Origin: Tribonema minus
Lineage: Eukaryota > Sar > Xanthophyceae > Tribonematales > Tribonemataceae
DNA length: 64,000 nucleotides
Assembly: GCA_017506865.1 (NCBI GenBank)
Contig: JAFCMP010000539.1
Span: forward strand, 496,001 to 560,000
Reading direction: 5' to 3'
Shown here: positions 17,780-53,818 of the stretch, piece by piece
Layout of the letters: each line of letters starts with the position of its first letter
How positions within the stretch are numbered: the first letter of the stretch is position 1
The notes under the pieces: generated by a model
Told to the model about the DNA's origin: nothing
The model's database searches: none
The model's input: the letters and a program-made list of their open reading frames with translations, nothing else
Made by a program: the position numbers and the translations under genes

Positions 17780-20700
17780 ATGCGCGGAAGCAGACTCTCT
17801 GCGGCGGCAGCGGCTTGCATGGCCCTATGCTACATGTGCCACAGCACAGTTGGGTTTGTTTCACCCCCATCGACCAGGTATCATGACACTCAGTGTACTC
17901 ATGGCCGCTTACGCAGCCAGCAGTACCGCCATTGGAGCCGGCAGCAACTAAATCCGCTCAGTAGAAGGACCAGCTGGAAGCGATGGGGTGGCAGTGAGGA
18001 CGAAGCGGATGGGACTTGCAGCAATGAAGCAGATACACGACAGCAGGAGCAGGAGCACGGCGAAGCACGGAGTAAAGCAGCTGAGGAAGGGAACGATGAC
18101 GACGCTATTCAGTTGCCTCCGCAGGACTGGCGGCGCTTCCGGGCAAAGCTGATCGCCGGGTCAGAGGAGGTGAGACAGATCTTCGCGAAGGCCGACGCAT
18201 GTTTCGGCATCGGCCAGCTTATAGAGAGCGTGCGGGCGCAAGCACTTCAAAATGCAAAGTACAGCATCACTACATATCAAAGTTGCGGGACTGTGTTTAC
18301 ATACAGACTACTCCTGAACGTGGCTTGATGCTCAGCTGGCTCCATCTGGTGACTGTAACCAATAAGTGTCATTCAATGATTTGCCTATGTCACGCACTTC
18401 AAAACGACCAAGCTTGCCCTAAAGTTTATCTCTTCGCGCAAGCGCAAGCATCTGCAGACTTGTACCGTTCCTGTTCAATGCTCAGCTGCACCCGCTGACG
18501 GAATTCATTGGACAATTGTAGACTGCAGCTGCGACACCAGCGTCTCCTCAGTAAAGTTGCACTGTTGCACGTAGCATGTCGAAACCTCACTGGTGCCTAC
18601 GCGCAGTTACAGGGCGGCCTTTTTGCACTGCTCTGTGGAAAACAAATACCCTGACTGTGAATCAAGGGGCCTGAGTTCAGCGCTGCATGCTTGTGCGCGA
18701 AGACCAGACTGTAAGTACGAATATCACCAGGTACACTTCAACATTTGATAACATGATGGCTGCCACTGCTGACCGCTACAGGTACTGCATGCACATAACC
18801 TGAAGCGCGCTGCCAGTCAAACCCATGCACACAGACTTTCGTCCAGGACGCTGTTGCCACTAACTTCTTCTTCGCACAGGCTGTGCATGTACGAGTTGCG
18901 TGTGATTGTGCTGGATCAACGCCCATGCTGCTCTTGAATCCCTTGGATGCGCTCTCGTCCATGCGCATGTGCAGCAGTGCTTCGGCGTAGTGTTGGCCGC
19001 TGGCCGTTGTCGATGCTGAGCGCTGACCATTGTCAATGCCGAGGTGTCGCTGTTGCAGTGCACGAGCTTCGTATCCAACTGCAACAGGCCACCACGAGGG
19101 CTCGAGTCTCTCACTCACCCCCACATGATGAGTACGTTCGCACTTGCGTCCACCCAAGTAGCCTGATGAAATCGCAACTCAACAACGGCAATTTGCTGCG
19201 ATGGGCGTGGATGATACAAAACAATTTAGAACGTGGTGCAGCATCGCCATGCGATCTGTCGCAGAACTGCATCTCAGGTTTTCTGGGAGCGTCCCCGCCT
19301 GAAGTTCAAGAAAGGACGGAGCAGTCTATGCACGGACCTCCACCTTGAACTTCAACGTGTGTGTTACAAACACAATTCAAAGGCTCAGGACCAGGCGGTG
19401 GCTCTGTCGCGCAGCTCTCTACAAGCTGTTGCGGTAGCAGTTTCAGGGACCAGCCACCTGCCCACCTTCACTCGAAGGCTGCGAGTGATTCCAGCCTCAC
19501 AGCATGCATGTCTGTAAACCTAATGAAGAAAGGACGGAGCAGTCTATGCACGGACCTCCACCTTGAACTTCAACGTGTGTGTTACAAACACAATTCAAAG
19601 GCTCAGGACCAGGCGGTGGCTCTGTCGCGCAGCTCTCTACAAGCTGTTGCGGTAGCAGTTTCAGGGACCAGCCACCTGCCCACCTTCACTCGAAGGCTGC
19701 GAGTGATTCCAGCCTCACAGCATGCATGTCTGTAAACCTTTGGTAGGTAATGTCAGAACGTACGCTGACTTCAAGACAACCATGACAGCTTCACGTTGAT
19801 CATGCCACCTCTCCCATCATACCTCTTCATAATGCTACTTCAGCTTGGCCCATGCCATGCCCCCCCGGGTCATGCCTCAGCATGCCCCATGATTTGCTGC
19901 TGAGAGCCATAGTGACATACGCTTAGATACTGGAGAGTGTACAGTAGCATATGTCACACTCATACGCCTAGGGCTGGTCTACCTAGGGTCCGTATTGACC
20001 AGTGAAACCCCCCCCCGCCACGCACACACACCCGCATCCCCTCCTGCCCACCCGCGCATGTCGCCACCAGAAGCAGCTGCAGCAAAACGTAAACCTGCAG
20101 CTTCATGGTGTCGAAACATGGGCGCACGAGCTCCTGGCTCCTGGGCCGGGCTGCCGTCTGCTGTCCACGTGTACTGCAGATGTACTGCTGATGCACACCG
20201 TCAGGGGAACATTCCCCCCCATTCAGTGAACTACACTCTCACACCCCCCCCCCCCCCCCCCTTCCGGGTTTTTCAGGCGTGGCACGAGCGGCTGCAGCGG
20301 AACGTCAACCCGCGGCTTAAGGACGTGGAAACGTGGGCGCACGAGTTGGCGGCGCCCGAACCGGGCTGTCTGCTGCTAGCGAGCCCTGACCACTTCACTG
20401 GACAAGAGAGCCAGTACAGCCAGGCGGTCATCTTCCTCGTGCAGCACAACGCCAACGGCAGCGTCGGCTTTGTGCTGAACCGCCCGACGCAGTTCACGAT
20501 AGGGACGGTGACGACGGGGATGGAGGTGTTCAACGCGTGCCCGCTCATGTGGGGGGGGGACCTGGGGAGGGGGACGGTGCAGATGGTGCACGCGTTCGAC
20601 GCGGAGAGGATGCCGGGGGCGCGCAAGGTGCGTCACCTGCCTCTTTTTACTGCAACTTCAACTGTAATGCACGGAAGTACTCCTTTGAGAATGCACTTAG

Positions 20701-23385
20701 TGCCTTCAGATAGTACAGAACACTATAGCATGGATCCTTTGAATGTTTATGCGTATATAGGTGCTGGCACTGCGGCCCTCAGTTGCTGGCCAAACAAGAA
20801 AACCATACTACAGAAACACCGTGCTTGCTTGTTCAATCATGTGTTATCCTACCTGTATATGACTGGTAGTACAGGGGGGGAGATGAGGAGGAGGGGGAAA
20901 GGGGGATGGGGAAGGGGGAGGAGCTCTTCTGCTGCTCCAGTAGCCCTTCAACGATTTCTGGTAATTGGCACCGCTGATTGAAACCGGCGTGCCTCGTTAA
21001 GGTCTTGTGGTGTCTCAGGCATTGCGCCTTCCCTTCTGTCTCTGGTGAGCAGATTGAGGACGAAGCCGCAGCTGTTATACAACAAGGGTGAGAGTAGAGA
21101 CCTAGGGTTCAAGGGTAGGGCAACGATGAGGGTCAGGGTCAGGGCCACAAATAGGGTTAGGGTTAGGGTTGCAGGTCTCACACGCATTGCCTTGCCCTTG
21201 CCTTTCGCTGCGCGCCTCTCGTGTACAGATCCTTGACGGCAGTTACGTCAGGCGGTTCCGGCTTGGGATCACATAAGGCTATGGTATAGGTGCACGGGCA
21301 GCGTCAGTGTTAGGGCATGCGCTGAGTCTTGGTCGCACGCGTCCTCTGCTGTGCGCCTCTTGTGACCAGATCATCGACGGCAGGTGCACGGGCAGCGTCA
21401 GTGTTAGGGCATGCGCTGAGTCTTGGCCTAACGCTCGTCCTCTGCTGTGCGCGTCTTATGACCAGATCATCGACGGCGTCTATGTGGGGGGCGGGGTACT
21501 GGACGCCCAGGAGGCGGTGGCGAGGGGGCAGGCGAAACCGGGGGACTTCAAGTTCTTCCTGCAGCTGTTCGGCAAGGCGCCGGGTCACCTGCAGGCCGAG
21601 GTACACTTTCAGTACATACTTACCTTACCTATGTGCACATCGTCTTGAACAAGCAGATAAGCATAGGGCATCGGACGCTGCCACACCGACGGTATCTCTA
21701 AAGCAGGTTTCTTGGGCAGGCGTCAGCGCCTTTGCATGCTGCTGCCGCTTCGGTGGGACACTGCAACGGAGGGGTACCGTTGAGCACTGATGCATGCCCC
21801 TGTGCTCCTCATCGGCGTTGGCGTCACCTTGTCGAACAGGAGACAAGCTCAAGCTCAGCACCGACAAATTGAGATATAACTCAATGGTTGTCCTCAAGAG
21901 GCCCTGCGGCCGCTGTCGAGCAATGCTGCATCGAAGCATCTGAGCAGTGCTGCGTAGGCCACATCAGGGACATCGGGTTGTTGTGAGCACAGTGTGGCGC
22001 GCTTGTGATAAGCGAAGTCATCACCGTGAGGATGCCTTACATATCAAACCCTGTGCTTTTCACACCAATAGTTTGTTGGTGCTCTGCAGCATCTGCTGAA
22101 GCACTGCTTCCGAGCATGGCCATGCGCCAGACTGATGTGAAGTTTGAGTTGAGCTGATTGCAGTGCCTAGCGACTCAATGGAGGGCGTTGTACGACACTT
22201 CACTGCTTGCTTACGAAGTCGAAACACCAATGCCTCTCTCCTCCAGCGATATTTCAGTGAATGTTGAAGTTGAGCTCAGCAACTCGAACTACAGGGCGCG
22301 GTGTCGCAGCGTCGCCGCACTGATCGATGCTGTTGGCATTTGTTTGCTACAATTTGTTCTTTCACAGTACTGTGTGTAAATCTGTGATGCCGCAATCTTC
22401 AAGAGGTTGAGCGCATCCTGCTGTGGTGCGTGCTGCATGTTGTGACGACCATGGCTGAGCGCTGCTGCATTGTGCTGCTGCAGATGGACGCCGGAAAGTG
22501 GATTTGTGCGGCCACGTCAAAGGAGCTCATACTGAAGCCCTGTATAAACCTGCCGGTGCCACTCTGGCGCGAGGTGCTGACGCTCATGGGGGGCAAGCAC
22601 AGGTATGTATGTATGTTTGTATACGCCCGTAACTGGCAACTTTTGCTACTGCAGCACCCGTTATCGTGGAGTCGGTGAGGCACGATCGTCGCACGCAATG
22701 CACTCACGGTAGGCATGTCACTCCTTCCACAAGTCATGTTTTTTTTTTTTGTAAAGCCCAAGAAGCACCGAAGCCTAATGTTACACCTACATTTGGTGCT
22801 CCGCTGGCATAAACCAGAAGCATCAGAGCCTGCTGTTTTGCGTATATCCAGTGCTCGGCAGCATAGCCCTTTCAAAGAGTGTCTTGGAAGTATGCTCAAG
22901 TAAAGATCAGAGTCACATCAATAGTCCTTTCAAAGAGTATCTTGAAGTATGCTGATAGTAAGGATGCGAGTCAGAGTCACAACAAAATCAACAAGTGCTC
23001 TGCTGCGCATGTTATTGGTACTCTTACTCGCCACGCAGCACGCAGCGCTTTTTCCGGAGAAACTGGCAGGCAGACATGTCTGAAACAGGTCAAGCGAGGT
23101 CATGCTAGCACATTGGTTGTTGATAATGTAACACAAAGTAATGCCCGGTGAGCTTGCCAACGACAAAATCAAACTCTGAAGAATTGGTGTACTTGCACCA
23201 CGATTCTCCACGAAACATAGATTTTGTTGCCATGCGCAGCTTGTTTTGCAGGTCTCAACTGCACCACTTGTGCACTTTAAGTTGACGTGCCGACATGCTC
23301 ATCCGCTCCTCTGGCCGTTCCTCTATTCGTGCGCCCTCTCCTCTTCTGCAGCATTCTGGGCAGGCTCACGTACGGCGACTTGTAG
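17780..23385 (+). CDS. Plastid-targeted UPF0301 / AlgH (YqgE, DUF179) family protein, five exons
   Basis: Exons 17780-18169, 20277-20627, 21466-21600, 22484-22602 and 23352-23385 join in phase to 342 residues. The N-terminus 'MRGSRLSAAAAACMALCYMC' then 'STVGFVSPP' is a signal peptide with Phe at the expected cleavage site plus a transit-like stretch, the heterokont plastid route. After an acidic linker comes 'LPPQDWRRFRAKLI'. The AlgH core follows: 'ETWAHELAAPEPGCLLLASP', 'QAVIFLVQHNANGSVGFVLN', 'PLMWGGDLGRG', 'IIDGVYVGGGVLDAQEAV', 'KPGDFKFFLQLFGKAPGHLQ', 'MDAGKWICAATSKELIL' and 'WREVLTLMGG'. The last exon is only 34 nt and completes 'SILGRLTYGDL' at TAG; it is the least certain junction but fits in phase. 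The biochemical function of the family is unknown. Confidence 0.88.
19308..19743. repeat. Perfect tandem duplication, 218 bp period, in UPF0301 intron 1
   Basis: The block from 'AAGAAAGGACGGAGCAGTC' to 'CATGCATGTCTGTAAACCT' occurs twice back to back, and I see no difference between the copies. Identity in intron sequence implies a very recent event or an assembly artefact. Confidence 0.85.
20068..20165 (+). repeat. Echo of UPF0301 exon 2 start in the preceding intron
   Basis: This intronic segment translates to 'KQLQQNVNLQLHGVETWAHE' and then 'LLAPGPGCRLLS'. The real exon start at 20287-20390 gives 'ERLQRNVNPRLKDVETWAHE' and then 'LAAPEPGCLLLA'. It is a diverged duplicate of the first ~100 nt of the exon, about 215 bp upstream. 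Confidence 0.8.
21152..21171 (+). repeat. Interstitial telomere-like repeat
   Basis: 'TAGGGTTAGGGTTAGGGTT' within UPF0301 intron 2, preceded by 'GGGTCAGGGTCAGGG'. Confidence 0.75.
21218..21465 (+). repeat. Two echoes of the UPF0301 exon 3 acceptor
   Basis: The true exon starts at 21466 after 'CAG' with ATCATCGACGGCGTC. Two upstream copies of acceptor plus exon start occur: near 21228 (CAG then ATCCTTGACGGCAG) and near 21367 (CAG then ATCATCGACGGCAG). The second and the true site lie in a ~100 bp tandem repeat sharing 'GGGCATGCGCTGAGTCTTGG' and 'CCTCTGCTGTGCGC'. Confidence 0.8.
22862..22975 (+). repeat. Short tandem duplication, ~62 bp period
   Basis: 'CCTTTCAAAGAGT.TCTTG' followed by 'GAAGTATGCT' and 'AAGGAT/AAGATC...AGAGTCACA' occurs twice in UPF0301 intron 4. 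Confidence 0.65.
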
Positions 23386-25147: not shown

Positions 25148-28100
25148 TCACCTGACGCGCTCGACCTGCACGTCCCACAGCGTGGTCGAATCGCGGCGAG
25201 GGTTCTTGACGACGCTGTCAAGCGCGTTCTGGTCAATCTTGCTGCGCGGCGCGGGCTGGAATGGCGTGCCGACCTTGTAGCCCTGCGCGGCGGGGACGAC
25301 GATGCGGCGGATGCCCCCCTTCTTCATGCCCAGTATGCCCTCCTCCAGGCCTGCGTATTGTAGAGGTAGGAGGGCGAAAATGCAATAGATGTCCTCTGTC
25401 AGTTGCAGGGCATTATTGGAAATGAATCAAAAGAGCGTAGAGCTCCAGGTGATAGGGTGTTGTTGTTATTATGCCCAGTATGCCCGTCTCCAGGCCTGCG
25501 TGTTGGAGGGGAGGAGGGCGTGCATGCATACATGCCCTCTGTCAGCTGCAGGGCATTGCTATCATTATTGGTGGAAGGCACTTGCGGCTACCCATCCCTT
25601 GTCACCTGGAGCTCTACGATCTTTTGATTCATTTTTCATTATGCTCAGCATGCCCTCCTCCAGGCCTGCAAATGGAGGGAGGGTGAGGGGCATGCATGCA
25701 TACATACCCCAACTCACACCACTGTCAGCTGCGATGCATGTTGTTGACATCATGGCTTATTCGGCTCAATGTCCAGTGGCGTTTATGATTATACTGCTGC
25801 ACACGCGCCTTGATGGGGTAGCAATTGACCAACTCTGGTAGCGCAAACAAGACGCCACAAAAGTTGGCACCTTCAACTTGAAAGCTGACAGACACGGTCT
25901 TAGTGTGCCGCCAAGGGTGATGAATGGGAAGGGGGGTGACGCAAGGAAACATTTCCCTCCGGCGCAGTTAAAACAGCAGGACTATAGAATCACGAGGGTC
26001 CATCAAGTCATGGTTGTCAACGAGACTGTTTTGCAATGTCCAAGTCAGGCGCAGCTGGATAGTCACTGAAGCACGTCGTTACCTCTGCGCATCACTTGCG
26101 TTTAAGACCCGAGATGTCAGCACCACCACGCATGAGTCTGACTCAAGATTATATACTTCTATCATATATGGCATAACTTTAATTCATACTTTGAAGTATG
26201 ATAAATGAGCGGCGACCGCGGTTATTGGTGGAAGGCACTCGCGGCTAACCACTCCTTGTCATCTAGAGCTCTACTATGTTTTGAATTGTTTCCATAATAA
26301 CTCAACAGAAGTACTTTGTTTGTTTGTGCACGTCAGCTATGTGCGTGTACCTGGTATGGTTTTCAAGACTGTTTTGCGACGTCCGCCTTTGGCACACCTG
26401 GCAGTCTACTGGAATGCTTCTTGAAGTTACGCCTTTTTCTCTGCGCATCACTCGCGATTCGCAATGCGGTATGCCGACCGCCACGTACAACTCTCATGTT
26501 GTCCATTACTGCAGGTCAGCTGTGTATGTGCGCGTACCTGGTATGGTGCTACCGTCGCCAATTGTCAGCACCAGCGGCTCTGGTCCCACCAGAGGGTCGA
26601 CCACATTGTCCTGTTCAAACAGGGTTAGGATTAGGGTTCAGGGTTAGGGGTTGGGGGTTTAGGATTAAGGTTAGGTCAGCACACCCCGCAAACACGCCCT
26701 TCAGCACAAGAGAGTAACGCTTCAGATACACGGATAGCAGGAAACACCAGAGAGTAAAGAAGCGTCAAGCGCGTTGCTCGAACGGTGCACGCGCACAGGG
26801 GTCAATCAACGGGCCCCTTGGACGCACAGCACACTTCAGCACTAGCAAGAGAGCAAGGTGTGAACACGCGCAATCAGACATGCAGATTTGTCAGTTTCAT
26901 TGAAACCTCTCCAGCAGCACAAATACCAAATGGGCTGCGATCGGCATCACGAGCGCTTGTCAATGTGTGCGTGAAAGACCGCCGCCGCCAAATCGCCAGC
27001 GCTGTGTATCTGCCGAATGGTGTGTGCATGTTATTTATACATGAAAAATGAATCAAAAGATCGTAGAGCTCTAGGTGACAAGGGATGGTCGGCCGCAAGT
27101 GCCTTCCACCAATATACATGAAAACGAATCAAAAGATCGTAGAGCTCTAGGTGACAAGGGATGGTTAGCCGCAAGTGCCTTCCACCAGTAACCGTGGTTG
27201 CCGCTGCTGCAGCAATTGGCCACGAGTCAAACAATACCACCGTATCCACCAGTCAAAAGACTTTTGTGTGCAAGCTTTTAGCGTTCGAGACATACACATT
27301 TGGAACGGTCTTTCAACCCTGTGCAGGTACATCCCTGCAGAGTAGCACTACCTACATGCTTCCCTGCACATGCATAACCGGATCAACTTCTGTCGAATAC
27401 TACATGCGCATTCAGGAAGTACACGAGTATGCTCCTCTAATGATGTCAGCAGGGCTCACCTTGGCGGATAATGACTTCATGCCATCAAGGTGAAGTAGCT
27501 TACTTGAAGTGCATGACAGCAGTGCTGATCTTTGAAGTAGGCTTGAGGTGAAGAGTGTCAGACAGCAGCGCTCACCTTTGTGAAGAAGTAAAGATGATGA
27601 AGTAGATAAACATACTTCAACACAATATGGCAGCAACCGGCCTCATGCCGTCAAGGCGAAGTGCATGAGCACTGCTCACCTTCTTGAAGTGAGAATTGAC
27701 TTGAAGCGTGTGAGACAGCAGCGCTCACCTTTGAGGAGAAGAACTTGACACCATTGAGCATGGCATGATAGCAGCGCGCACCTTCAAGGACAACCGGCTT
27801 CATGCCATTGAGGTGGAGTACATGAGCAATGCTCATATATTTTTATGTAGGACTTGAGTTGAAGTGTGTCAGGCAGCAGCGCGCACCTTTGTGGAGAAGA
27901 ACTTGACGCCGTTGAGGTTGAGCATCCGCCCTGTCGCCTGCACCCACACCCTGCTCCCCTTCTTCACCTGCGGACCGACGCATGCAAAGAAGAACACGTC
28001 CAGAAATGAGTCATGGAGATGAGTCACGATTCACGAGTCATGCGACGCATTGTCAGCGGAGTGTCACCTCCCTGACTCCGCCTCATCTGTTGCGCTACGA

Positions 28101-31100
28101 TCAGCTCTGTTCACTACGAGGGCTAGCGACAACTGTTACTGCAGTTCATCAGATGTACCACAAGTCTAGTTGCAGCAACTGCCACACTTCAAGAGAGATC
28201 ACACATGTGCACGCCACCACTGTATGTTGTTCAGCATTGACATAGTGTGTAGCCCTATTACACTACAGCAGCATCGTGGTGCCACAGCTGCGCTATCACC
28301 TCAAGCACGATCACACCATACCACCCGCGCAACTTGACACAAAGACTTCACTGCGCCTCCGAGGATTGCACTACCATCACATGTGTGCGATGCATGCACA
28401 GTTGCCAGCACCATCACCAAACTTCAAAATAACAACTTCAAGCTCGTAGCCCCATCACAGTTACACTTGAGAGCGCGGTGATTGCAGCTTGTCTACAGGT
28501 ATAGAAATGCACTAAAGGTGAACTTACCTCAGCGCCGCTCCCGCTGCGGTAGTCCTGCGAAGGCCAACACAGCAAGATGCAGCAATGCTCAGCGTGAGAA
28601 CGAATAGCTGCAGCTTCCTGATTTGCCCAGCAATGCAGGCAAATCCTCCAAAGGAAGTACGTCACTGCAAAAACAACGAATACATTCCTTTGTGAAACAT
28701 TCGTGGATCCACCTGCCACAACTGTAGGAAGTCGATGTGTCAGTGCCAAGTTGGCTGTGTCAGCTTGAGGTGTAAAAGCGATCTAGTTGCACTTGATTGA
28801 ACGGCAACTGGCGCACTGGGCTATGTAGCACTGCCCTGTCGATTGCACAAAGCCGGCTACTAAAGAACTTGAATCCCCCCCTCCCCCCTATGACTCACAG
28901 TTGGCGCTTTTCCACAAACGCAGCCGAGCGCTGCTGCATACCTTGGTCTTGACGCCGCTGGGCAGCGTGGTGAAGGGCACGTCGCCCAGCGGGATGCAAG
29001 AAGAACACGTACTTCAACAATCAGTCGTGAAACAAATTCATCAGTCGAGGGCTGCTGCATACCTTGATCGCTTCAGGATGCAAGAAAAACATGTACCTCA
29101 ACAAGCATGCTGAAACAAAAAAAAACAGGCGAGCGCTGCCGCGTACCTTGATCTTGACGCCACTTGGCAGCGTCATGAAGGGCACGTCGCCCAGCGGAAT
29201 GTAAGGAGAACACATGCTTCAACAATTATTCGAACATGAAGTTCATCAGCCGAGCGCTGCTGCGCACCTTGATCTTGACGCCACTTGGCAGCGTCGTGAA
29301 GGGCACGTCGCCCAGCGGGATGTAAGAAAAACACCTACTTCAACAATTATGCAAACATCAAGTTCATCAGCCGAGCGCTGCTGCACACCTTGCTCTTGTC
29401 GCCACTTGGCAGCGTCGTGAAGGGCACGTCGCCCAAGATGTAAGAAAAACACCTACTTCAACAATCATGCAAACATCAAGTTCATCAGCCGAGCGCTGCT
29501 GCGCACCTTGATCTTGACGCCACTTGGCAGCGTCGTGAAGGGCACGTCGCCGAGTGGCGCCTGATCCTTGCCGGACAGCGGCGTCTGCGTGCTCACGCTC
29601 TCAAAGCTGCAGGGCAGACAAGCAGGCGGTCGCAAGTAGCAATTACTTTGAAGTACAACGCGCTCTCACAGCCACAGAGCCCCGCAGGACGCACTGGCAG
29701 GAGATGTCAATTGCACATGCACGGCGCTGCCGGGGTGATGCTCATACATTGCAGGCCTCTCAAGGCTGCAGCGCTCGCGAGCAAGCGATCCGGGATCACA
29801 TCACTGCTGTGGCAGGTTAGGTTTAGGGTTAGGGTTAGGGTTAGTGGTGAGCGCTGCCATGGGTCAGGTGAGTTCAGCGCCGCCGCGGCGCAGATGCCCA
29901 GCATCTCAGCAACACTGCTGCGGGGCATGGCGATGTCGCGCATGAGGTCGCTTGAAGGTGCTGCAAAAGCACGCGAACGGGAGAACGTCAGCGCAGGGCG
30001 CGCGAGCATGCGATCCGGATCACAGGTGCTGGTGTGAAAGGTTTAGGGTTGGGGTGAGTGGCGAGTGCTATCACGAGTCAGTGTTCAGCGCAGTCGCAGT
30101 GCAGATGCTCAGCATGTCAAGTGCACTGCGGGTGTGCGTGATGATGTTGCGTGCGAGGTCGCTCGAAGCTGCTGCGGAGGGACGCGAACGGGAGGGCGTC
30201 AGTGCAGGGCTCGCAAGCAGGCAATCTGAGACCACATTGCTGCGCGTGGGGATGTCGCAGGGTTGGCATTAGGGTTAGTGGTGAGCGCTGTGATAAGTCA
30301 GCGCTCGGCGCCGCCGCAGCGCTGATGCTCAGCATTTCAGTAACGCTGCAGGTGCATGGTGCTGGCACACGTCAGCTGTAGAGGTATGCAAACAAGAGTT
30401 GAAGTTGCATTGAAGTGCGCTTGTAGTTGCAGAGACCTGCTTCGTGTACGTGCTCAGCGCAACGGGCCTCTGCTGGGGCTTCCATGGTCACCATTCGCAA
30501 GCTTCAAGAAATCATGATCAGCACCGTCTGAGTTTCGTCAACAACACTAGCTCATGGATTTGGCAAGCACGTAAGTGGCATCAGGCACTGCTTCAGTGTT
30601 ATTTTGGCACAAGGAACAGCGTGCATTCAGAAACTCTGGCTTAACGCGCAGCAGGCGTCGTGAACGAACGCACAATCACCCATTGCTGCCAGCATGGATT
30701 TATTGGCGGCAACATGGAGACTATGAATCAGTTGCTTGACAGTTGCTTGACAGGCGCATGCTCTCGATGGAGATCAGCAACTGATGACCATAATTAGGTC
30801 CAACCTAACCTTATGCCGCAACACCTGCAGCCTCCTATTGCTGGTAGTCAAACCAGTTGTGTGTCAGATTTATACGACAGGGCGCGTTGATCAGCTGCAG
30901 TGCAACAACGATGTGCAGTCTCATCACAATTTAAGTAGTGAACATGGCTCATAGTAGAACAGCAGAAGATAATGAACTCCTGTAGCATGTTGTTGGTGTT
31001 CGGTACAGAACGCTGACCTAGTAGGCCTATGCTTCTATGCCGCTGTGTTGGCTTCATGATGCACGCAGAAGCAAGGAATGAACCTGGCTATAGCAATTGA

Positions 31101-39925: not shown

Positions 39926-39956
<31 letters not shown>

Positions 39957-42900: not shown

Positions 42901-45900
42901 CCCCCCCTTCCCCCTCCGCCGCGCCGGTGGCGCTCCCACCCGCGCGCCTCCAGCGCCGCGTACAGCTCGTGCGCGCTCGCGACGAGCTCCGGGTGCGCGC
43001 GGAGGAACGCCGCCGCCTCGTCCGCCGTGAACGTGTCGCGGCCGCGCGGGCCGCTGCCGTCCGGCGCCGCCGCGCCCCAGCGCACGAGCAGGTGCTCGCC
43101 CGTCGCGGGGCACTCCGCGTGCCGCCAGCGCAGCGCTATGAGGCGCTGCGCGACGGCCAGGTCGCCCTCGCGCAGCAGCGCCGCGACGCTGGGGAAGTCG
43201 CGCAGCGCGGGGGGCGCCTCCGCGGCGGCGGCGACGGCGGCGGCGGCGCCGATGGCGGCGGTGCGCGCGCGCCCCTTGCCGCCGCACGCGGCAGCGGGCT
43301 TTGCGGCGGCTGCGGGGCGGGCTGCGCCGCCGCGTGCCGCGGGCGCGCTAGACGCCACTGGCGCCTGCGCCGCAGCAGCAGCGGCAGCGGCAGCAGCGCT
43401 GGTGGCGGCGGCTGCAACGGCGCCGGTGGCAGCAGCGGCGCGCTTGACCGTGCGGCTGCTGCTGCCGGTGGTGTTGGCGCCGGTCATGGCGCCGGCAGCA
43501 GCAGCGCTGGAGTCAGCAGCGCGTGCACTCCGCGCTCGCTTCGGTGCCAGGGCGCTGCGCACAGCACGCGGCGAAAGCGTAGAGGTGCGCGGCGATGAGC
43601 GATGCACGATGAGGTTGAGCGCTGCTGAAGATGGCAGCAATCCAGATTCGCAGCACGGTAGTGCCAGCGAACAGGTGCAGCACGAGGTTCTACTCTTGTA
43701 CTGGCGTTGACCTACATGCTCCAAGAGCGTCGCTCTTGAACTCTGCGGGGCTGCACAGATTGAGCACTGATGCAGTGCGCAACTACCCCAATCCCAAACC
43801 CAAGTACCCGTCCCCATTCTGGATGGACTAGCATATAGATCCACTGTTCATGCCATTGATGCATGCTGCAGGCAGATGCGGCAGTGGTGGTGTTGCTGCT
43901 TCCACAGCAGTGCCATACACAAACTATTGCACCGTGTAGAGTAGGCAGCATATAATCAAGCCTACATAGCCATGCGACAGACACGGTGAAGCTGTTGTGA
44001 ACAGCGACACAAAACGCCAGGCATGCAGTGAACTTGTCAGAACATCACGCGCTCTAGCACACTTTGCATCTACTGCAGTCTGTAGCACTGTCTCAAGCAC
44101 CGCCGCTGCTGCCCGTTTGACACTGTGTGCTGCCGCTCAACCACGTTTCAAATCTGACACCCTCCTGCTACAAGCATTCTAGCATTCTCAAGCAGTGTGC
44201 GCACTCCTGTAGTAACGCCAAGCACCGCCGCCGCCCATACATAATGGGACCTCGTGCTGCTGCTACTCTACTGTTTACCCATACATACCTGACGGGCTCC
44301 GCCGACGCCACAGGTTGAGCGCTGACACCGCATTGCGTATCCACTATTAGCATTCTAAAGCAGTGTCAGCGGTAGTAACGCTGAGCACAGCCGCTGCCCA
44401 TATATAATGGCGCCTCGTGCTGTGCTGCTGCTGCACAACCGTTTTCCTACACTTCGTACATACCTGACGTCCTCCGCGGCCGGCACAGGCTGAGCGCTGT
44501 CACCGCGCTGCCCACACATGGCACCTCGTGCTGCTGCTCAACCGTTCTGTTTCGTACTTTGAAGTACATACCTGACGTGCTCGGCAGACGGCACAGGTTG
44601 AGCGCTGTGCTGCGTACCCACGGCGTGCACTTGCGGCTAGCCACACCTTGTCAGCTAGAGGTCTACAGTCTTTTGAATCGTTTCCATATTTGGCATCTCG
44701 TGCTGCTACTCAACCGTTTTCCCCTTACCTGACGTCCTCTGGCGACGCCACACGTTGAGCGCTGTCACCACGCTGCGTCCCCACGGCGTGCGCCCACGCG
44801 CCGCTGGCCCAGTTCGCCTCCACGAACGAGCGCACCTGCGCCTCGCTCGTGAAGTAGTGCAGGCCGAGGACGCTGTCGCTGAGCACTGCAGCGCGACTCA
44901 GGCCTTTGACTCGACTCGCTGATGACTCGCGCAGGCCCGGCCGGAACCAGTACATGCTGACGAGACCGTCGCCGTACTAAAGGAAGGGGGGGGTGGGGGG
45001 GGGGGCAGTTACGATGTCAGTTACACTTTTCAGTTACAGACGGTTGCGGAGTGTCAATTCAAGTGATGGATGATGCCGTCAGCCCAGCGAGTCGCCATGG
45101 ACATTCGAAAGAGTTTTTAATGCAGGCGGTACGGGGAAACGTACGAGCCATGGCGCACTCAACTCAACTTGAAGCGATGATTGTGAGGTGCCTGGTGCAC
45201 GTTGGCAAACCGTAGCAGCAGCACCGAGTGATGCTCACCATTTCAGCAATGCTGCTTGATCGGACACGAACAAGTCAGCGTACAGGCACCACCACGATTT
45301 GTGAGCGATGCTACTGAGAACTTACGGGTACTGGCGTTATACGGCACAGTGACCGTAGCACGCGGACCTGCAGAGGAAAAAGCTGATCCTTGATTGGCAT
45401 GCCACCTTGCTGTCTGCGGTTGTATGTACAACAGCTCACTTGCATATGACAGGTATGAAGTTTCGTTGCACCACCAGAAATGGACCCTCATGCGCACACA
45501 CTGCGTGAAAAAAGCCCCTCTGCTGACACCAGTTGAAGTTCGCAAACCACCAATAGCACTGCAAGAAGCTCTGTTGGAACGCACCCTCTCAATGCGCCTC
45601 GCTACACGCTATACATACATATGTACGTCCAGCACCGCCTCGATCGCCGTATCGCTCTGCCATCATACGCATACAGCAGAACACTTCAGCCTGCAGGCAT
45701 TGCCTACGGTGAGCAACAAACGCAATACCTACATACCTCGCTGTACCAGCCCTCGTCCTTCAGGTACGCCCACAGCTCTTTGAAAACCTTCGGTAGGCCG
45801 CCGACCTCAGCCACCAGTGCCGCCAGTGCGACGCCACCATTGCTGCTGCTGCTGCTGCTGCTGTGGCCGCCGCCAGTGCGTGCGTGCTTGCTGGCGCTGC

Positions 45901-48232
45901 TGCCGCTGCCGCCGTTCTGGTCGCTGCTGCTGCCGCTGCCTTTGCCGCTGCTTCTGCCGCTGTTTTCGCCGCTGCTGCTGCTGCCGCTGCCGCCGCTGCT
46001 GCTCCTGCCGCCGCTGCGGCTGCTGCCGCCACTGCCGCTGCTGCTGCCGCTGCTGCCGCTGCTGCCGCTGCGGCCTGCTGCCGCACTGCGTTTGGGCGAT
46101 ACCAGCCTGGTAGTGCCAGCAAACAGGTGCACACCGCAAGCTTCTACCCTTGAACTGGCGTTGATTCAGATGCGGTGAGTGCATCGCTGTTGAAGTCCGT
46201 GGGGCAGCACGGGTTGAGCACTGATGCAGCGCATACCTACCCCTAAGCGCATACCTAAGAAAACTCTGTCCTGTTCTAGACGGTCTTGAAGAAAATCCAG
46301 CTGTTTATGCCATTCACGCATGCTGCAGACAGATGAGCCAGTGGTGGCGCCGCTTGTTCTACAACAGTGCCATACACAATCGACTGCATGATGTGTAGCA
46401 GGAAGTAAACATGCATGTATACCTGGTCACACCACAGATATGGCGGAGCTGTTGTGAAAGTGGTGCGGTGCCGCAGCTACAGGGCGCTTACACACAATAC
46501 ACAATGAATCTGTTAACATCACGCGCGCTTGCACCCTTTGCGTCTAGCACTTTCAAGGCAGTATACATACATGCAGACCCGAGAATGCCACAGATAGGTG
46601 TAGCTGTTGCGGTGCTACAGCGCCATAGCTATAGGTTGCATGCAATATGCATAAACCTGTCATGATGTCACGCGCTCTTGCACACTCTGCTCTACTGCGC
46701 CCTTTCTCAAGCAACGCTGCTACCCATTTAGCACTGTGTGCCGCTGGTCAACAGATTACTATGATACCGGACGTCGTCCTGCTAGCATTCTCAGGCAGCG
46801 TGAGCGGTAGTAACGCCGAGCACCGCCGCTGCCCATATATAACGGCACCTCGTGCTGCCGCTTAAACCGTGTTTCCACATATACCTGACGTCCTCCTCCT
46901 ACAAGCATTCTAGCATTCTCAAGCAGTGCGAGCAGTACTCACGTCGAGCACCATGCAATGGCCCTGTGTGGCTGCTCAAACCGTTTCTCGATACATACCT
47001 GACGTCCCCCGCCGACGGCACAGGTTGAGCGCTGTCACCGCGCTGCGTACCCACCGCGTGCGCCCACGCGCCGCTCTCCCAGTTCTCCTCCACGAACGAC
47101 CGCACCTGCGCCTCACTCGTGAAGTAGTGCAGGCCGAGGACGCTGTTGCTGAGCACTGCGGCACGACTCAAGCCTTTGACTGGACTCGCTGATGACTCGC
47201 GCAGGCCCGGCCGGAACCAGTACATGCTGACCAGACCGTCGCCGTACTGAAAGGGAGGGGGGGGAAGGGGGGGGGGCAGTGGCGCAGCTGGCGTCAGGTA
47301 CAGTTTCAGTTACAGAGCAGCAGCGCAGCTCAGTTTCAGTTTCAGTTACGGGGGGTGCGGAGCGTCACTTCAAGTGATAGCTGCTGTCAGCGCAGCGAGT
47401 CACCATTGATGTTTGGAGAGTGTTGTTGTTGAGCGATACGATATAATGCCCTACAGACAAGCCTAAAGCCCTTACTGTGACAGGCAAACCAAATATAGCC
47501 CATACAGTGACACGCTTTTTGTCCACACTGCAATGCACTGAATGTTGTGCTGGGCGCGCAGGGCGGCAGCAGCGCAGCGTAGCGAGGCGTAATGGTGTAT
47601 GTAGCCTATGTCAGTTTCAATGTCAGTAATGGTTATAGGTGGGGAGTGTCACTTCAAGTGATTGATGTTGTCAGCACCGGCGTCACCGCGGAGAGTTCTA
47701 TAGAAAGTGGTACCAACAGGATGGAACAAAATAAGAGGCGAAACATGCACTGGGCAAACATGGGTATCGTGGCGCTCTCTACTCAAATTGAATTGATGAG
47801 GTGCTTATTTCACATTGGCAAACCATACCAACACCACCAAGAAATATTCATAGTTTCGGCGATGCGTCTTGATCAGAGACGAGCAAGTCAGCGCACAGGC
47901 AGTACTAAGATGCATTTGTGACACCAGTTGAACTTTGCAAACCACCAATGGCACTGCAAGAAGCTCTGTTGGAACTCATCCTCTCAATGCGCCTCGCCAC
48001 ACGCTATACATACATAGCTCCAGCACCGCCTCGATCGCCATATCGCTCTGCCATCATACATACGCATACAGCAGCACATGTCAGCCTGCAGGTATTGCCT
48101 ACGGCGAGCAACGAACGCGATACCTACATACCTCGCTGTACCAGCCCTCGTCCTTGAGGTACGCCCACAGCTCCTTGAAAGCCTCCGGTAGCCCGCCGAC
48201 CTCCGCTACCAGTGCCGCCAGTGCGCCGCCGC

Positions 48233-48275
<43 letters not shown>

Positions 48276-51200
48276 GCCGCCGTCTGCACGCGCATGTTTG
48301 CTGCTGCTGCTGCCGCCACTGCTGCCGCCGCTGCCGCCGCTGCTGCCGCTGCTGCTGCCGCTGCCACCGCTGCCGCTGCTGCCTCTGCGGCCTTCCGCCG
48401 CACTGCGTGTGGGCGACACCAGCCGGGCGCGTTTGCTCGCTGTGTCACCGCGTCGCCCAACCGTCTTTGCAGTCACAGTTGGCTGCGCAGTGCCATCCAG
48501 GCTCGCCGCAGCTGCCGTGCGCTTCGTCCGCGGTGCCGGTGCCACCAGCGCCGGCACTTCCGCCCCGCCCTCGGTGCTGCGCGGCGCTGGAGCCTGCTTG
48601 CGCCTGCCCTTTGCTGCGCCTGGCGCTGGCTTGACAGCGGAGGATGCAAGAGCTTCGGTCGCTGTCGCTGGCGCTGGTGCCGCCGCTGCTGCTGGCGCTG
48701 CTGGCGCCGCTGCCGCCGCTGCTGTCAGCGTTTCTTCTCGCAGCCGCCTCTCCTTCTCGGCAGTGGTGCGTGTCGTCGGCGCACGCGGCTGCGCCGCCGC
48801 TGCTGGCGTTGGCGGCGCTGGTGCCGCTGCTGACGCCGGCGGGGCTGACAACGCTGCTGGCACCGGCGGCGCTGCTGCCGCAGCTGCTGGCGGCTTGTCG
48901 CTACGCCGCTTCTTGTTGTCGACAGTGGCGCGCACCTTCTTGCGCACAGCCGGCGCCGCCGCTGCTGCCGCCGCTGCTGCCGCAGCTGCCGCAGCTGCCA
49001 GCGACTCCGCGACGACGCGATCCTCCTGCCTAGCAGCGGTGCGCGTCTTGCGCGCGGACGGCGGCGACACCGCCGCCGCCGCCGCCGCCGCGGTTACCGC
49101 CGCCACCGCCGCCGCCGCAGCGGGCGCGCCGCTTGCGTCGCTGCAGAGCGTCACCTCCTCGCGCCACGCGCCCGACTCCCACCTGCCGCCGCCGCGCAGC
49201 CACGCCAGGAGCTCGGCGTCGCTGAGGAAGTAGTGCTCGCCGCGCGCGTACGCGGCGCGCGCGCTGCGCGGCGTCGCGTCCGGCACCCCCGGCCGGATGT
49301 ACGGCACGTCCGGCGCCCAGCTGAACCCCGCTTCGCGCAGCAGCGCCTGGATCTGCCGCAGCGCGGCGGTGTGGATGTTGACCTCGTGCCACGGCGCTTC
49401 AGCGGCGCAGCGCTGCTGCCGCTCGCTGCCCGCGCTGCTGCCACTGCCGGCGCCGGCGCCGCCGCCGCCGCCGCTGCGGCGCGCTGAAGCGGGGGGGGAG
49501 GCGCCGCCGTCCGAGCCTATGAATGCCGCTGTCGGCGGAGAGTCACTTGCTGACCGCGAGCTGGGCCGCGCGGGTGTGGGCGTCACCTTGCGCGCCTTCC
49601 CCGCGGTAGTGCCCGCCGGCCTAGGCGATGTGAAATCCGCAGCTGCCGCCGCCGCTGCCGCTGGTGCCGCCGCCGCCACTGCTGTCGCCGCCGATGCGCC
49701 GGCGCTGCGGCGAGCTGCTGCTGCTGCTGCGCCGCTGCTGCCGCCGCCGCGTTCGCGGCGCATGTTCACGGGCGGGCTGACAATGGCCGGCACCGAGCGC
49801 AGCTTGGCAGCGCGCTCAGCGGGGCGCCTCGGGGCAGCGGTCATGGCAGTGACGGCCATGGCAGCCGCGGCCGCCTCGCTGTCCTCCTCGGCGGCACTGC
49901 CGCGCTGCGCGCGCGGCGGTGGCGTCGGCGGCGACGGCGGCGACAGCGTCACGGGCGCGTGCCAGCCGTCGCCGTGCCACGTCGCCTGCAGGAAGTCGAG
50001 CAGCATCTCGCGCGACGAGAAGAAGTCTGTACCCTCGCTGAACTGCCTGTGAACCCTGGCGCCGGGGCGCACAAAGTACTCCGCGGCAAGGAACGGCTCC
50101 CTGGGCCCCCTGAATTTGTACCCGGCGTCCAGCAGCAGGCGCCCGAGCTCCTGGTGGAGCAGGCTCGGGTCGCGCTTGATGGCGGCGATGTCGATGGCGG
50201 CGGCGCGCGCCTGCAGCGCCTCCGCCGAGTGCTGCGCGGCGCCGCTGCCGCTGCTGCCGCCGCCGCTGCTGCTGCGGCTGACGGCGCTCGACGCTGCTGC
50301 CGCGGCGGCGGCAGAAGTGTTGACAGCGTTGCTCTCCGCTGCTGCGGCCGCCGCTGCCGGTGCTGCGGCCACTGCTGCGGCGTCCGACGCGCTGGCGGCA
50401 CCCGCGTGGGGCGCCGCCTCCGCCACCGCGCTGCGCGCCGCTCGCTCCTCGTGGCCCTGCAGCTGCTGCTGCTGCCGCTGCTGCTCCGCAAGCACCGCCG
50501 CTGCTGTGTCTCTCCGCGCCTGCCGCAGCTCCGCCGCCTCTTTCATGGCTTCAAGCAGCGCGTTGCTAGCGTCGTCGCCGCGGAGGTTGGCGATGCCGTA
50601 CGCCTCCATGTGGCGCTCGTAGTCGGTTACGAGCGACGGATCGCTGAGCGATGAGGCGAGGTCGGGGTAGAGCAGGGGGACGACAATGGGGCCGTCGGCT
50701 GCAAACTTTTTCGGAAGCTGGCAGGAAAGCGCACAGCGAAGGGAACGGGAGAGGGAGTGAGGGAGTGGCTGTGTTGAGGCAGTTTGATGAAAGTGTTCAA
50801 AGTTTATGTAGGAACTTCGAAAGTACCGCAGGATTAAGCGTGCCGCAGGGCAGCAATCTCCAATACCATAGCAGTGCTATTTGACGCAGCATGTAGGTGT
50901 GCAGGCGGCAGCCATTCCAGCTGGAAGTGACGGCAGTCGGTATCGAAGCAGCAGCGAAGCATATGGTTTTTCAAAACCATGGTCATCTGATCATGTATGG
51001 ACGCATGCGACCAGAACCTACAGTTGGAGCTGCGACGCACTCCAGAACACTGCAGCTTGTGACCGACGCACCTTGCACTCTCTCCTGGCGTCTCTGGGCG
51101 ATGCATATTTCAAAGCGGGCCACCAGCCTTCTGGGTTCTCGGCCGTGAACACCTCGCGTCGCAACCACACTATCTCGCCCGTGACACGTGGTGTTTTAGA

Positions 51201-51308
51201 CAAGGCAGCGGCGGCGTCACTCTTGTCTGGCGTCCTCATCGTCCTCTGTCGCATCTCCATGCTCCCTGCATGTGTGTGCGTGCCAAGGATACATCGCGAG
51301 AGAGCCAA
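37058..51308 (-). CDS. CDC6/ORC1-like AAA+ protein with PWWP-like N-terminus and multiple repeat domains (minus-strand paralogue), six exons
   Basis: Exons: 51308 (or Met at 51260)-51072, 50717-48132, 47246-46999, 46106-45737, 44976-44729 and about 43554-37058. Junction phases agree, giving roughly 3,380 codons. Exon 1 has 'GEIVWLRREVF' and 'GWWPALKYASP' (PWWP-like). Then come Y.RPG repeats ('YFVRPGARVHR', 'YIRPGVPDATP', and 'YWFRPGLRESS' twice), a long acidic/Ala-rich region, four tandem GWRWRNGG modules, a fifth variant 'GWRWVGGG', and the AAA+ module. Walker A is 'GAPGTGKT', Walker B region 'LVLTIEEVNYL', sensor 1 'IGVANNINLTE', sensor 2 'SGDARDALQLAQ', then a winged-helix-like end. CDC6/ORC1 proteins load replicative helicase; DNA-replication licensing is inferred. 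The frame switches by one nucleotide between about 42395 and 42330 with no good intron, so the copy may be damaged, mis-assembled or use a tiny intron. Exons 4-5 are duplicates of the exon 2 end plus exon 3. Confidence 0.78.
39430..41645 (-). repeat. Four tandem ~565-660 bp units encoding GWRWRNGG modules
   Basis: Units cover about 41645-41300, 41010-40660, 40440-40075 and 39780-39430 plus linkers. Each encodes 'LQAHL.LRS.SGAAAFKRAF', 'GWRWRNGGLAG.NLLC.PSV' and 'GALGVT.F.GS...GDFVRA', followed by an Ala-rich linker with 'ADASGMQIA'. High similarity implies recent expansion; the plus-strand paralogue has a single, more divergent module. Confidence 0.85.
43660..48450 (-). repeat. Tandem ~2.4 kb intragenic duplication
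   Basis: The segment 46.1-48.45 kb is repeated as 43.66-46.1 kb. Both contain the exon end encoding 'ELWAYLKDEGWYSE', the exon encoding 'YGDGLVSMYWFRPGLRE' and matching intron sequence (for example 'GTTGAA.TTTGCAAACCACCA' near 45535 and 47930). The duplication doubled one Y.RPG domain and preserved splicing phase. Confidence 0.85.
44285..44625 (-). repeat. Three echoes of exon 5 donor
   Basis: Downstream of the exon end at 44729 the donor region recurs near 44565-44625, 44463-44515 and 44288-44335. On the plus strand each reads CCTGACG...CGGC/ACGCCACAGG(T/C)TGAGCGCTG. Confidence 0.8.
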
Positions 51309-52055
51309 AATTCAAATTCAAATTTGAGAGGGCGGCAAAGTGCTTGCTGAAAAGGTTCGTAAGGCACTGTAGAGTTTGCTGCCAAGTTTTGAGTGATGAT
51401 GGTATCCGTTTGTCACACATATGCTACCAGTACTGCGCAATCGAGTGAGCAAGTTCGTTCCAACGTACTGCGTGCGCGGTGGAGACTTGACGACAACTGG
51501 CAATGTGTGACAGCTTACTAACGACTCATTACTGATGAGAAATCAAGGTCTGCCAAGCTTCACCACTGCTAATCATGAATCCCATTTACTTTCTGAAATT
51601 CCTTTTGTGCAAAGAAATATGCCAAAGCGATTGTGCAGAGAAGACGCATCTGACTCTGCTAGCAGATCCTGCATGGGGAAAAGCACGATCAGGTGCCGCT
51701 GTTTGAAGGAAATACCCTTGCCCTTGCCTCTCTGCTTACTTCACAAGTATTTTGCATGCAACTGCAAACATATCGTTGCGCACAACATAAACGCCAAGCA
51801 TCAACCGGACAAAGTGGTAACTGCAGTGAGCATGGGAGTAAGAGTTGGACATACGCGCAACAACTTGAGTTGAACCAACTCACACACAACACATCGTCGT
51901 GTCATTACCAGATTTACAAGGCCCGCACTTGTTAGCATACCACCGCTTCGATGCCTACAGCGCGGCATCCGCTCTAACCCCCCTCCCCCCCCCCCCTATA
52001 CCACGTACAGCACACAGCACGCACGTCAACCCCCCCCCCCCCCCCCCCCCCCCCC
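51309..52055. other. Spacer between the CDC6-like gene start and the SDR gene end
   Basis: Upstream region of the minus-strand CDC6-like gene, AT-richer than its exons. No gene recognised. A poly-C tract (about 52029-52056) abuts the SDR stop codon. Confidence 0.5.
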
Positions 52056-53818
52056 CTATTCCTTGCGCCCCCTGTTGACGTCGTGCGTCTTGTAGTCCGG
52101 CAGGAACGGCGCGGCGACCGCCGAGGACCAGTATAGGAAGTTTCCGGGGAGGAGCGACGCGGAGAGGCGCATGATCACCGCCGGCGCGCCGACCTCGCGC
52201 CAGACGACGCGCCCCACGCTTTTGAAGATGACCTTGGGGAGCGTGGATGCGGCGACCGCGCCGCGCGCCGCCTTGTCCATCATGTCTATCCTGTGGTCGA
52301 GGCCGGAGTAGAAGGCGGTCGCGACGGGCGAGGGGTGGATGGAGAGGACGTCGACGCCCTTGCAGCGCACCTCCGCCGCGAGCGACCCCGCAAAGTTGGT
52401 CAGGAACGCCTTCGTCGCGCCGTACATGACGCAGAACGGCGCGGGCATGTAGGCGACGGCGGACGACGTGAAGACGACGCAGCCGCGCAGCCGCGCCGCG
52501 ATGAGGCGGCCCAGGAAGTGGTGCGTGATGCGCGCCGCCGCGACCGCGTTGCACTCCATGTTGGCGGCCTGCTTGGCGCCGAGCGTCGAGTCGTAGAACC
52601 CCGTCACGATGTAGCCGGCGTTGTTGAAGATGCACTGGATCGGCAGCCCGTCCGTGGCTTCCCTGCGCGCCCGTGTGCGTGTGAGTGAGGGGGGGCAAGG
52701 AAGGGGTTGTGAGCGGCGTTTCAGGGGATGATATGCGGCAGTGCTTAGACAGGCAGAAGCGCAGTGCAGCAAGGCAGCAGTGCTCCCCTGCACGCTTTGG
52801 TTTCGTTTTGAAGGGCGGGCACCGGGGGGTGGCATGCGGCAGTGCTCAGAGAGGCAGAAGCGCAGCAGCAGCGCTCAAAGTGTGGGGTGAGCTGTAGCGC
52901 TCTGCGCGCGCTGCAGGGTAGGGCGTGCGCAGCGCCTTTGTTGACGTGCCTATCCGAACGTTTGCGAGGCACAGCAGCTGCAGAGGATCAGTAGGCTCGG
53001 GCAAGTGCAAAGGACCAAAGGTGTGCATCAAGTTTGCAACCTAACCCTAACCCTGACCCTCGCCCTAACCTAACCCTACCCCTAACCCATCAAACCTGCA
53101 GCAATTGCACGCCACTGCCCATGTAGAGGATTGGAATCATGACAACAGGTTCTAGACGTTGTGTGAATGTGCCAGCAGCTTTGATGAACTTCTGGTCCTT
53201 GAAGGCAGCGCTCAGCGCCGCGTTTGTGTCGTCATCCCATGCACTAACATACTTCAGCAACATCATACTTTGTATATATTAGGTACATAGAAGAATCGCG
53301 CGTACGCACTTGATGGGCGTCATGTAGTCCACGCCTGGCGCAAACTTCACGCCCACATTGATGAACTTCTGGCCCTTGAAGGCAGCGCTTAGCGCCGCGT
53401 GCGTGTCATCACTTCATGCACTACTATATTTCCATGCCCGGCGCGAAGTTCACGTCCACTTTGACAAACTGCTGGTCCTTGAACGTAGCGCTCAGCGCCG
53501 CGTGCGCGTCACCTAATAAGGGCAGTTGATGATGATAAATTATGTCAGAACCGCAGATACGCACTTGATGGGCGTCATGTAGTCGACGCCCGGCGCGAAG
53601 TTCACGCCCACTTTGACGAACTTCTGGTCCTTGAAGGCAGCGCTCAGCGCCGCGTGCGTTTCGTCCAGCAGCCCCCCCCCCAGCGCCACGATGACCACGT
53701 TAAACCCCTGCAACGCCAGCGCCTCAACCAGAGCACGCCCGATGCCGCTGCTGCCGCCCGTTACGAGCGCCCACTCCGCGCCGTACTTCTTCTTGAGGTT
53801 CTGCGCGGGGAGCACCAT
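52056..53818 (-). CDS. Short-chain dehydrogenase/reductase (17-beta-HSD / 3-ketoacyl-CoA reductase-like), two exons
   Basis: Exon 1 (53818-53565) and exon 2 (52662-52056) join in phase 2 to 286 residues. The Rossmann motif 'WALVTGGSSGIGRALVEALA' binds NAD(P)H. 'GVNFAPGVDYMTPIK' and 'CIFNNAGYIVTGFYD' (NNAG) follow. The catalytic set is Ser in 'VVFTSSAVAYMPAP' and Tyr/Lys in 'VMYGATKAFLTNF'; 'LSIHPSPVATAFY' is the usual post-catalytic loop. The order and spacing fit the HSD17B12/KAR group, which reduces 3-ketoacyl-CoA or steroids, but substrate cannot be assigned. No clear membrane anchor is seen. The gene lies between the two head-to-head CDC6-like genes, and its intron holds several copies of the exon 1 end. 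Confidence 0.9.
52726..52880. repeat. Tandem duplication, ~100 bp period, in SDR intron
   Basis: 'ATGCGGCAGTGCT.AGA.AG' followed by 'GCAGAAGCGCAG' occurs near 52732 and 52832. Confidence 0.65.
53039..53090. repeat. Interstitial telomere-like repeat (CCCTAA strand)
   Basis: About 50 bp of CCCTAA/CCCTGA/CCCTCG units in the SDR intron, for example 'CCTAACCCTAACCCTGACCC'. Confidence 0.8.
53160..53515 (-). repeat. Three echoes of SDR exon 1 end
   Basis: Copies of the exon segment encoding 'AALSAAFKDQKFVKVGVNFA' occur near 53450-53505, 53305-53400 and 53175-53230, beside the true exon end (53565-53660). The copy at 53305-53400 even retains the donor 'CATCAAGTGCG'. Confidence 0.85.

Follow-up and report, generated by a model that had tools for sequence, protein, structure and literature searches.

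Copies of exon ends and their splice sites in the adjoining introns of Tribonema minus

Many exon ends of Tribonema minus recur, together with their splice sites, as diverged copies in the adjoining introns. We investigated these copies, here called echoes, in a stretch of 64,000 nucleotides (the window; GenBank assembly GCA_017506865.1, contig JAFCMP010000539.1, positions 496,001 to 560,000 of the forward strand) and in a 303-kb sample that includes it. A first-pass annotation of the window had described echoes in four spliced genes and proposed that they are general, and the sample bears this out. Echoes were detected at 73 of 226 predicted splice borders (35 donors and 38 acceptors), with more than one record at 34 of them, and the search for local repeat pairs returned 412 direct and 11 inverted pairs, compared to 2 pairs in the reversed control. 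The echoes are a real and widespread pattern. They are probably best explained by frequent local tandem duplication, together with selective retention of the original border, neutral decay of the duplicate and conservation of the exon.

Sequences and exon prediction

The genome assembly comprises 158.2 Mb in 554 contigs. The sample of 303,044 nt, about 0.2% of the genome, consisted of three regions: S1, which is the window and the remainder of the same contig (153,044 nt), S2 (C1:1000001-1100000) and S3 (C334:1000001-1050000). Exons were predicted from sequence alone with a hidden-Markov exon finder, which was trained on window genes and subsequently self-trained. It converged on 144 exons, 122 of which had a score above 10 and a length of at least 60 nt. 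These 122 exons yielded 112 donors and 114 acceptors, not counting the borders predicted as starts or stops, and 91 introns with both neighbours predicted. Predicted borders are off by up to about 25 nt in places; at S1:88365, for example, sequence and echoes point to an acceptor further upstream. At least one predicted exon retained in the counts (53310-53411) is itself an echo.

Repeat pairs were searched within 3 kb at 38 bits or more, with short-period repeats masked and the reversed sequence as control. From the records that pair exonic with non-exonic sequence, alignments longer than 300 nt and targets overlapping predicted exons were excluded. For genes of the window, 11 borders were aligned locally to the flanking intron, on the intron side only, and compared with 200 two-base-block shuffles per border; a border was counted if it scored above the 99th percentile of its shuffles.

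Echoes mostly lie on the intron side of the exon end they copy

The orientation described in the first-pass annotation, with echoes of exon 3' ends downstream and of 5' ends upstream, was found in 140 of 160 exon-to-nonexon records (75 for 3' ends and 65 for 5' ends). The remaining records comprised nine copies from mid-exon, three reaching both exon ends and eight placed otherwise. The exon part of the echoes had a median length of 55 nt, and the smallest spacing a median of 157 nt. An exon encoding a DEAD-box helicase domain (PF00270) carries three echoes on either side.

Introns with border echoes were longer (n=50, median 1051 nt) than those without (n=41, median 732 nt; p=0.007). This difference fits the intron growth suggested in the first-pass annotation; it also fits with longer introns simply offering more room for echoes. 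Of the predicted start and stop borders, 2 of 8 starts and 4 of 10 stops had echoes as well. On reading, two of the stops look genuine, S2:81702 with three echoes that retain TAG and S1:82826 with echoes that carry TAG or TAA, while the other four echoed start and stop borders may be misplaced splice borders.

Echoes in genes of the window

The first-pass annotation had assigned the echoes of the window to a UPF0301, an FKBP, an SDR and a CDC6-like gene, and had proposed to align exon borders with their flanking introns against shuffled controls. This alignment confirmed the first three genes: 8 of their 11 borders scored above the 99th percentile, with one to five echoes each and one border barely passing. 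At the seven strong borders the best scores were 47-166 compared to shuffled maxima of 24-30, and some secondary echoes reached just 28-37. Echoed acceptors are 20277 (one echo) and 21466 (two) in the UPF0301 gene, and 25350 (two) and 29607 (one, weak, with a score of 28 and a shuffled maximum of 29) in the FKBP-type gene. Echoed donors are 29507 (five), 27887 (four) and 26538 (one) in the FKBP-type gene and approximately 53563 (three) in the SDR gene. The strongest arrays are those of the FKBP donor 29507 (85-97% identity) and of the SDR donor (89-98%). No echo above the shuffles was found in the intron-side alignments of UPF0301 donor 20627, FKBP donor 31255 and SDR acceptor 52661. The features are as follows (window positions):

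20277..20627, plus strand: UPF0301/AlgH-like exon with echoed acceptor 20277 (exon model; PF02622, E 2.4e-11)
20072..20162, plus strand: echo copying the 5' portion of exon 20277-20627 (91 nt at 75%)
21466..21600, plus strand: next UPF0301 exon, acceptor echoed (exon model)
21288..21381, plus strand: contiguous tandem copy of the acceptor and 12 nt of exon 21466 (93%, unit 94 nt)
21207-21240, plus strand: weaker copy of the acceptor edge of exon 21466
29507..29607, minus strand: exon of the FKBP-type gene, donor 29507 echoed five times (donor from exon model, acceptor end by eye)
28921..29433, minus strand: five donor-edge echoes of exon 29507-29607 (alignment against shuffles)
29757..30359, minus strand: intron repeats upstream of exon 29507-29607, spacing about 225 nt, with weak likeness to the acceptor border
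27887..27967, minus strand: following FKBP-type exon, donor echoed four times (exon model)
27447..27818, minus strand: four donor-edge echoes of exon 27887-27967 (73-90%)
26538..26610, minus strand: FKBP-type exon, donor with one echo (by eye, absent from exon model)
26327..26360, minus strand: donor-edge echo of exon 26538-26610 (94% over 34 nt)
25149..25350, minus strand: last FKBP-type exon, FKBP_C-like, acceptor echoed twice (PF00254, 20.9 bits, cut-off 21.1)
25471-25543 and 25635-25669, minus strand: two acceptor-edge echoes of exon 25149-25350
53565..53815, minus strand: first SDR exon, donor echoed three times (exon model; PF00106)
53436-53506, 53292-53404 and 53179-53223, minus strand: three donor-edge echoes of the first SDR exon (89-98%)
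52059..52661, minus strand: second SDR exon, acceptor without echo
44258..44628, minus strand: donor-edge echoes (three sites) of predicted exon 44729-44956
46782..46902, minus strand: donor-edge echo of predicted exon 46999-47246

The five echoes at 28921-29433 are partly arranged in 121-nt units, each consisting of about 50 nt of the exon end, the donor and the start of the intron; the exon model starts the corresponding exon at 29584. A single FKBP-type gene on the minus strand, running from 31.5 to 25.15 kb, seems to contain all three arrays at 28.9-29.6, 27.4-27.9 and 25.3-25.7 kb. Its exon order was read by eye, and its Pfam support comes from the last exon, just under the cut-off. The exon at 27887-27967, encoding 27 amino acids, matched no Pfam family. 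The CDC6-like identity of the fourth gene did not find support, as 6 of the 10 predicted minus-strand exons at 37-51 kb were searched against Pfam and matched no family; two of these six (44729-44956 and 46999-47246) do carry donor-side echoes.

The minus-strand predicted genes at 39424-42133 and 43651-48392 contain larger tandem duplications, with exon-intron units of about 570-660 nt, and a segment that recurs 2.3-2.7 kb away. In addition, an intron of the FKBP-type gene contains several copies, one pair of them in tandem, of a dispersed repeat of about 73 nt (27036-27187), with partial copies near 25417-25452, 25565-25627 and 26222-26284. Genome-wide, 40 of 1794 candidates were scored for this repeat, and all 40 matched at 82-100% identity. 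It may represent a small mobile or introner-like element.

Echoes diverge like neutral, non-coding copies

Mismatches between exons and echoes were counted by codon position in 96 echoes with at least 78% identity. Positions 1, 2 and 3 differed at 137 of 1571, 128 of 1567 and 228 of 1552 sites (8.7%, 8.2% and 14.7%), and the surplus at position 3 is read as silent change of the exon itself. The splice dinucleotides were retained in 39 of 51 (GT) and 40 of 45 (AG) cases, compared to a neutral expectation of about 0.78 (about 0.88 identity per base), AG being somewhat above it. Since codon positions 1 and 2 change equally and splice sites are retained at a near-neutral level, the echoes are read as dead fragments; they look like neutral, non-coding copies of an exon that keeps changing silently.

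For 74 of 116 echoes, the adjoining intron sequence resembled that next to the real border (p<0.05 in each case, with the flanks of unrelated introns as reference; chance would give about 6). Because the adjoining intron was co-copied in these cases, the echoes probably stem from local tandem duplication of units that cross the border, with subsequent array growth and decay, in line with the repeated tandem duplication proposed in the first-pass annotation. A lenient bound was applied in which the age of an echo is taken from its exon part; flanks were as similar as expected for this age in 109 of the 116 echoes, although the power is low for older ones. As judged by eye, the exonic breakpoint is mostly the same among the echoes of a given border. 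At an identity of at least 88%, ten tandem duplications were contiguous, with unit lengths of 67-391 nt. In six of them the copies adjoin directly or share no more than 6 nt, in one the overlap is 27 nt, and in three a gap of 4-22 nt lies between the copies. Multi-unit arrays, for example that at 29.1-29.6 kb, do not pass the filter used here. A fixed exon part of about 50 nt was considered as a mechanistic signature and dropped, since small units stretched by intron growth give the same picture.

Repeat families touching exons outnumber purely intronic ones

Intron-interior counts include the echoes themselves; family counts with planted and simulated null models were therefore used to analyze whether borders are preferred. 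For the same reason the raw border profile and the crossing rates (39 of 112 donors, 49 of 114 acceptors and 25.8% of intron-interior points; at 90% identity or more, 13 of 112, 14 of 114 and 4.8%) were rejected as support for targeting. Repeat families in the 91 introns were split into those touching an exon and purely intronic ones, which gave 68:22, a ratio of 3.1 (bootstrap 2.05-5.0). The counts were 54:18, 38:14 and 24:9 at identities of at least 80%, 85% and 90%, respectively, and 61:16 outside the window. Binomial tests against a border share of 0.474 resulted in p values of 4.8e-8 (all), 1.5e-4 (at least 85%) and 0.0028 (at least 90%).

Duplications planted with ages spread evenly up to 30% divergence, with indels and exon constraint, gave ratios of 0.56-1.10 over five identity classes and three settings. 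Up to 12% divergence, 0.88-0.95 of planted duplications were recovered at borders and 0.79-0.90 in intron interiors; recovery was 0.79 compared to 0.43 at 16% and 0.48 compared to 0.04 at 22%. As the exon copy is conserved, repeats containing exon sequence stay recognisable longer, which biases family counts toward borders. Forward simulations holding 83-151 families (90 were observed) yielded ratios of 0.27-0.70. When whole introns were grown from 250 nt by uniform units of about 150 nt, the ratios were 1.2-4.5 for all identities, 0.75-1.9 at 80% or more and 0.6-0.9 at 90% or more, so that the all-identity count alone cannot prove targeting. The observed ratio is about three to five times the planted expectation; on reasoning, any loss of intronic copies by deletion would reduce the excess further, at most by a factor of 2. 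The longer survival of exon-anchored repeats explains part of it and leaves an unexplained residue of roughly two- to fivefold.

The excess differs between regions: the ratio was 44:7 in S2, 21:15 in S1 (7:6 in the window and 14:9 in the remainder) and 3:0 in S3. After correction for conservation, it rests largely on one 100-kb stretch. Among the contiguous young duplications, four lie at borders and four are intron-only in or near known introns, and elsewhere one is at a border and one is not. Intron sequence 30-200 nt from borders was not significantly richer in repeats than deeper intron in any of 11 settings (ratios 0.21-1.25); this test, with exons and 30 nt on either side masked and introns of at least 900 nt (n=41, 37 of them outside the window), is confounded by arrays that start at the border. 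An apparent enrichment near borders at 88% or more, obtained with an earlier exon-masked gradient, was not significant with the 30-nt mask and comparison within introns. The border targeting suggested in the first-pass annotation has an excess of exon-touching families in its favor but is not established, in view of the regional dependence, the equal numbers among contiguous young duplications and the echoes at stop codons.

Origin and fate of the echoes

In the explanation that we favor, small direct tandem duplications of about 65-400 nt would be frequent in and around genes, and may be caused by slippage or break repair. If such a duplication crosses an exon border, the original border would remain in use, and the extra copy, consisting of the exon end, its splice site and some intron, would fall within the intron and be spliced out. 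Such a copy would decay neutrally, might duplicate again into an array and would lengthen the intron, and since the exon copy cannot drift freely, edge echoes would outlast purely intronic repeats as recognisable units. The direct local repeats, the co-copied flanks in most comparable cases, the neutral decay and the placement on the intron side are observed. Several results weigh against this explanation. In 42 of the 116 echoes no intron-flank homology above chance was found, and many exon-echo pairs of at least 92% identity have unaligned gaps of about 80-490 nt. The exon share of the unit is smaller than uniform placement predicts (Kolmogorov-Smirnov test, p 4e-11), which later growth of the intron part could cause. 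When echoes of the same border are compared with each other, 24 of 31 borders show greater similarity in the exon part than in the intron part, a comparison biased by the detection of echoes through exon similarity; among the 28 echoes with at least 90% identity, six have flanks that have diverged more than their age allows, which hints at renewed copying from the exon. Finally, uniform placement with decay fails to reproduce 68:22 in both the planted and the forward simulations.

This failure speaks for duplication directed to borders, in which breaks, stalled forks or R-loops at junctions would raise the duplication rate several-fold and introns would grow from their ends. The counts at high identity and outside the window point in the same direction. 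We consider this process the less likely one, as the excess is strongly region-dependent, the contiguous young duplications are evenly divided, the masked intron next to borders is not significantly enriched (in a confounded test) and whole-intron growth reaches the observed ratio when all identities are taken together, though it stays at 0.6-0.9 at 90% or more. The echoes at two genuine-looking stop codons argue against a purely splice-site-specific process; a general coding-edge process, or longer survival of exon-anchored repeats, fits better. Tentatively, borders of coding sequence, chiefly splice junctions, could be duplication hotspots in this lineage, from which introns grow inward by stacked edge copies, with the exon as protected template. 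Gene conversion, in which the selection-protected exon repeatedly overwrites intronic copies and keeps old border duplications young, could account for the too-diverged flanks of the six young echoes and for the greater similarity of exon parts, as well as for alignments that end within a few bases of the splice boundary in some echoes of at least 90%. Very fast introns are not a general cause of such differences, because the divergence of introns between duplicated gene copies in the window is 0.9 to about 1.8 times that at third codon positions, plus indels (few comparisons). However, the seven exceptions to the lenient same-age bound (5% level), which include those six, are about as many as expected by chance, and the exon's own third-position changes are absent from the echoes. 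Gene conversion did not hold as a general explanation under this bound and appears improbable.

The frequent retention of a usable GT or AG, the latter somewhat above expectation, would suit echoes serving as alternative or decoy exon ends in splicing. Such a function is very unlikely, since codon positions 1 and 2 change equally, site retention is near neutral and the echoes that were classified cover exon ends and not whole exons. The window is rich in simple repeats and the FKBP intron contains the 73-nt dispersed repeat, yet an origin of the echoes by chance, low complexity or a dispersed family is hardly credible, given the 2 reversed pairs compared to 412 within 3 kb with short-period repeats masked, and the window echoes well above their shuffles, except at acceptor 29607.

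Relation to other duplication systems

Introns can arise by tandem genomic duplication, as reportedly described by Gao and Lynch in 2009 and Hellsten et al. in 2011 and reviewed in PMC3443670. There an internal exon segment containing AGGT is duplicated and becomes a new intron. Both cases share a short local tandem copy of exon sequence with a splice-like site, only some sites being used. They differ in that here the unit spans an existing border and an existing intron gains a dead copy. In three regions and six borders viewed in sequence, no new intron position between copied AGGT sites was seen; the echoes lie next to borders that are already used and contain the splice site, mostly with some adjacent intron. 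Tandem exon duplication with mutually exclusive exons is likewise a local direct duplication within a gene (PMC9013439). In contrast, mostly one exon end is copied here and decays as non-coding sequence, and complete coding-constrained exon copies are not the rule, with 3 of 160 records reaching both ends and codon positions 1 and 2 changing equally. Introners (PMC9860276) also place repeated sequence in introns and contribute to intron turnover; they insert copies into many genes, whereas echoes are local copies of the adjoining exon (judged within 3 kb). The echo units include a coding border, which anchors and dates the array. This distinguishes them from minisatellites and intronic tandem arrays, in which tandem units of tens to hundreds of nucleotides likewise form growing arrays. 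Partial exon-edge copies as a genome-wide feature are not described in the titles and opening lines of abstracts of the open-licence literature matches listed.

Every echo, as a neutral copy of an exon end that is itself conserved, has its own clock. If about a third of borders carry such datable self-copies, intron growth, splice-site competition and duplication rates could be read from a single genome. A preference for borders, if true, would point to an unrecognised mutational process tied to splicing or exon chromatin.

Additional sequence features

Telomere-like TTAGGG/CCCTAA tracts, often imperfect, lie inside genes at the following positions:

26611-26670, window
29815-29844, window
53040-53088, window
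21150-21170, window
about 87860-87930, S1

One imperfect tract is located directly before an acceptor (26611), and another directly behind the donor of an echo. Perfect tracts of at least two units occur 15 times in the 303 kb, compared to a mean of 0.28 for other letter orders.

The chlorophyll-binding family has 92 matches genome-wide, counted exon by exon, and from these many antenna-protein exons the organism is taken to be photosynthetic. Antenna exon L032 resembles multi-domain LHCI chains, by summed weak matches, and next to these single-domain chains named ACP and CAC; antenna exon L031 had no match at 1e-10. A phycoerythrin family typical of cryptophytes gave no match, in a search in which the control genomes gave none either. 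ACP and CAC presumably denote chlorophyll a/c antennae. The window also contains plus-strand exons of a clathrin adaptor small chain at 10222-11470 (PF01217, the second exon under the cut-off) and, at 19308-19739 outside predicted exons, a perfect tandem duplication (100% over 214 nt) with a spacing of 218 nt.

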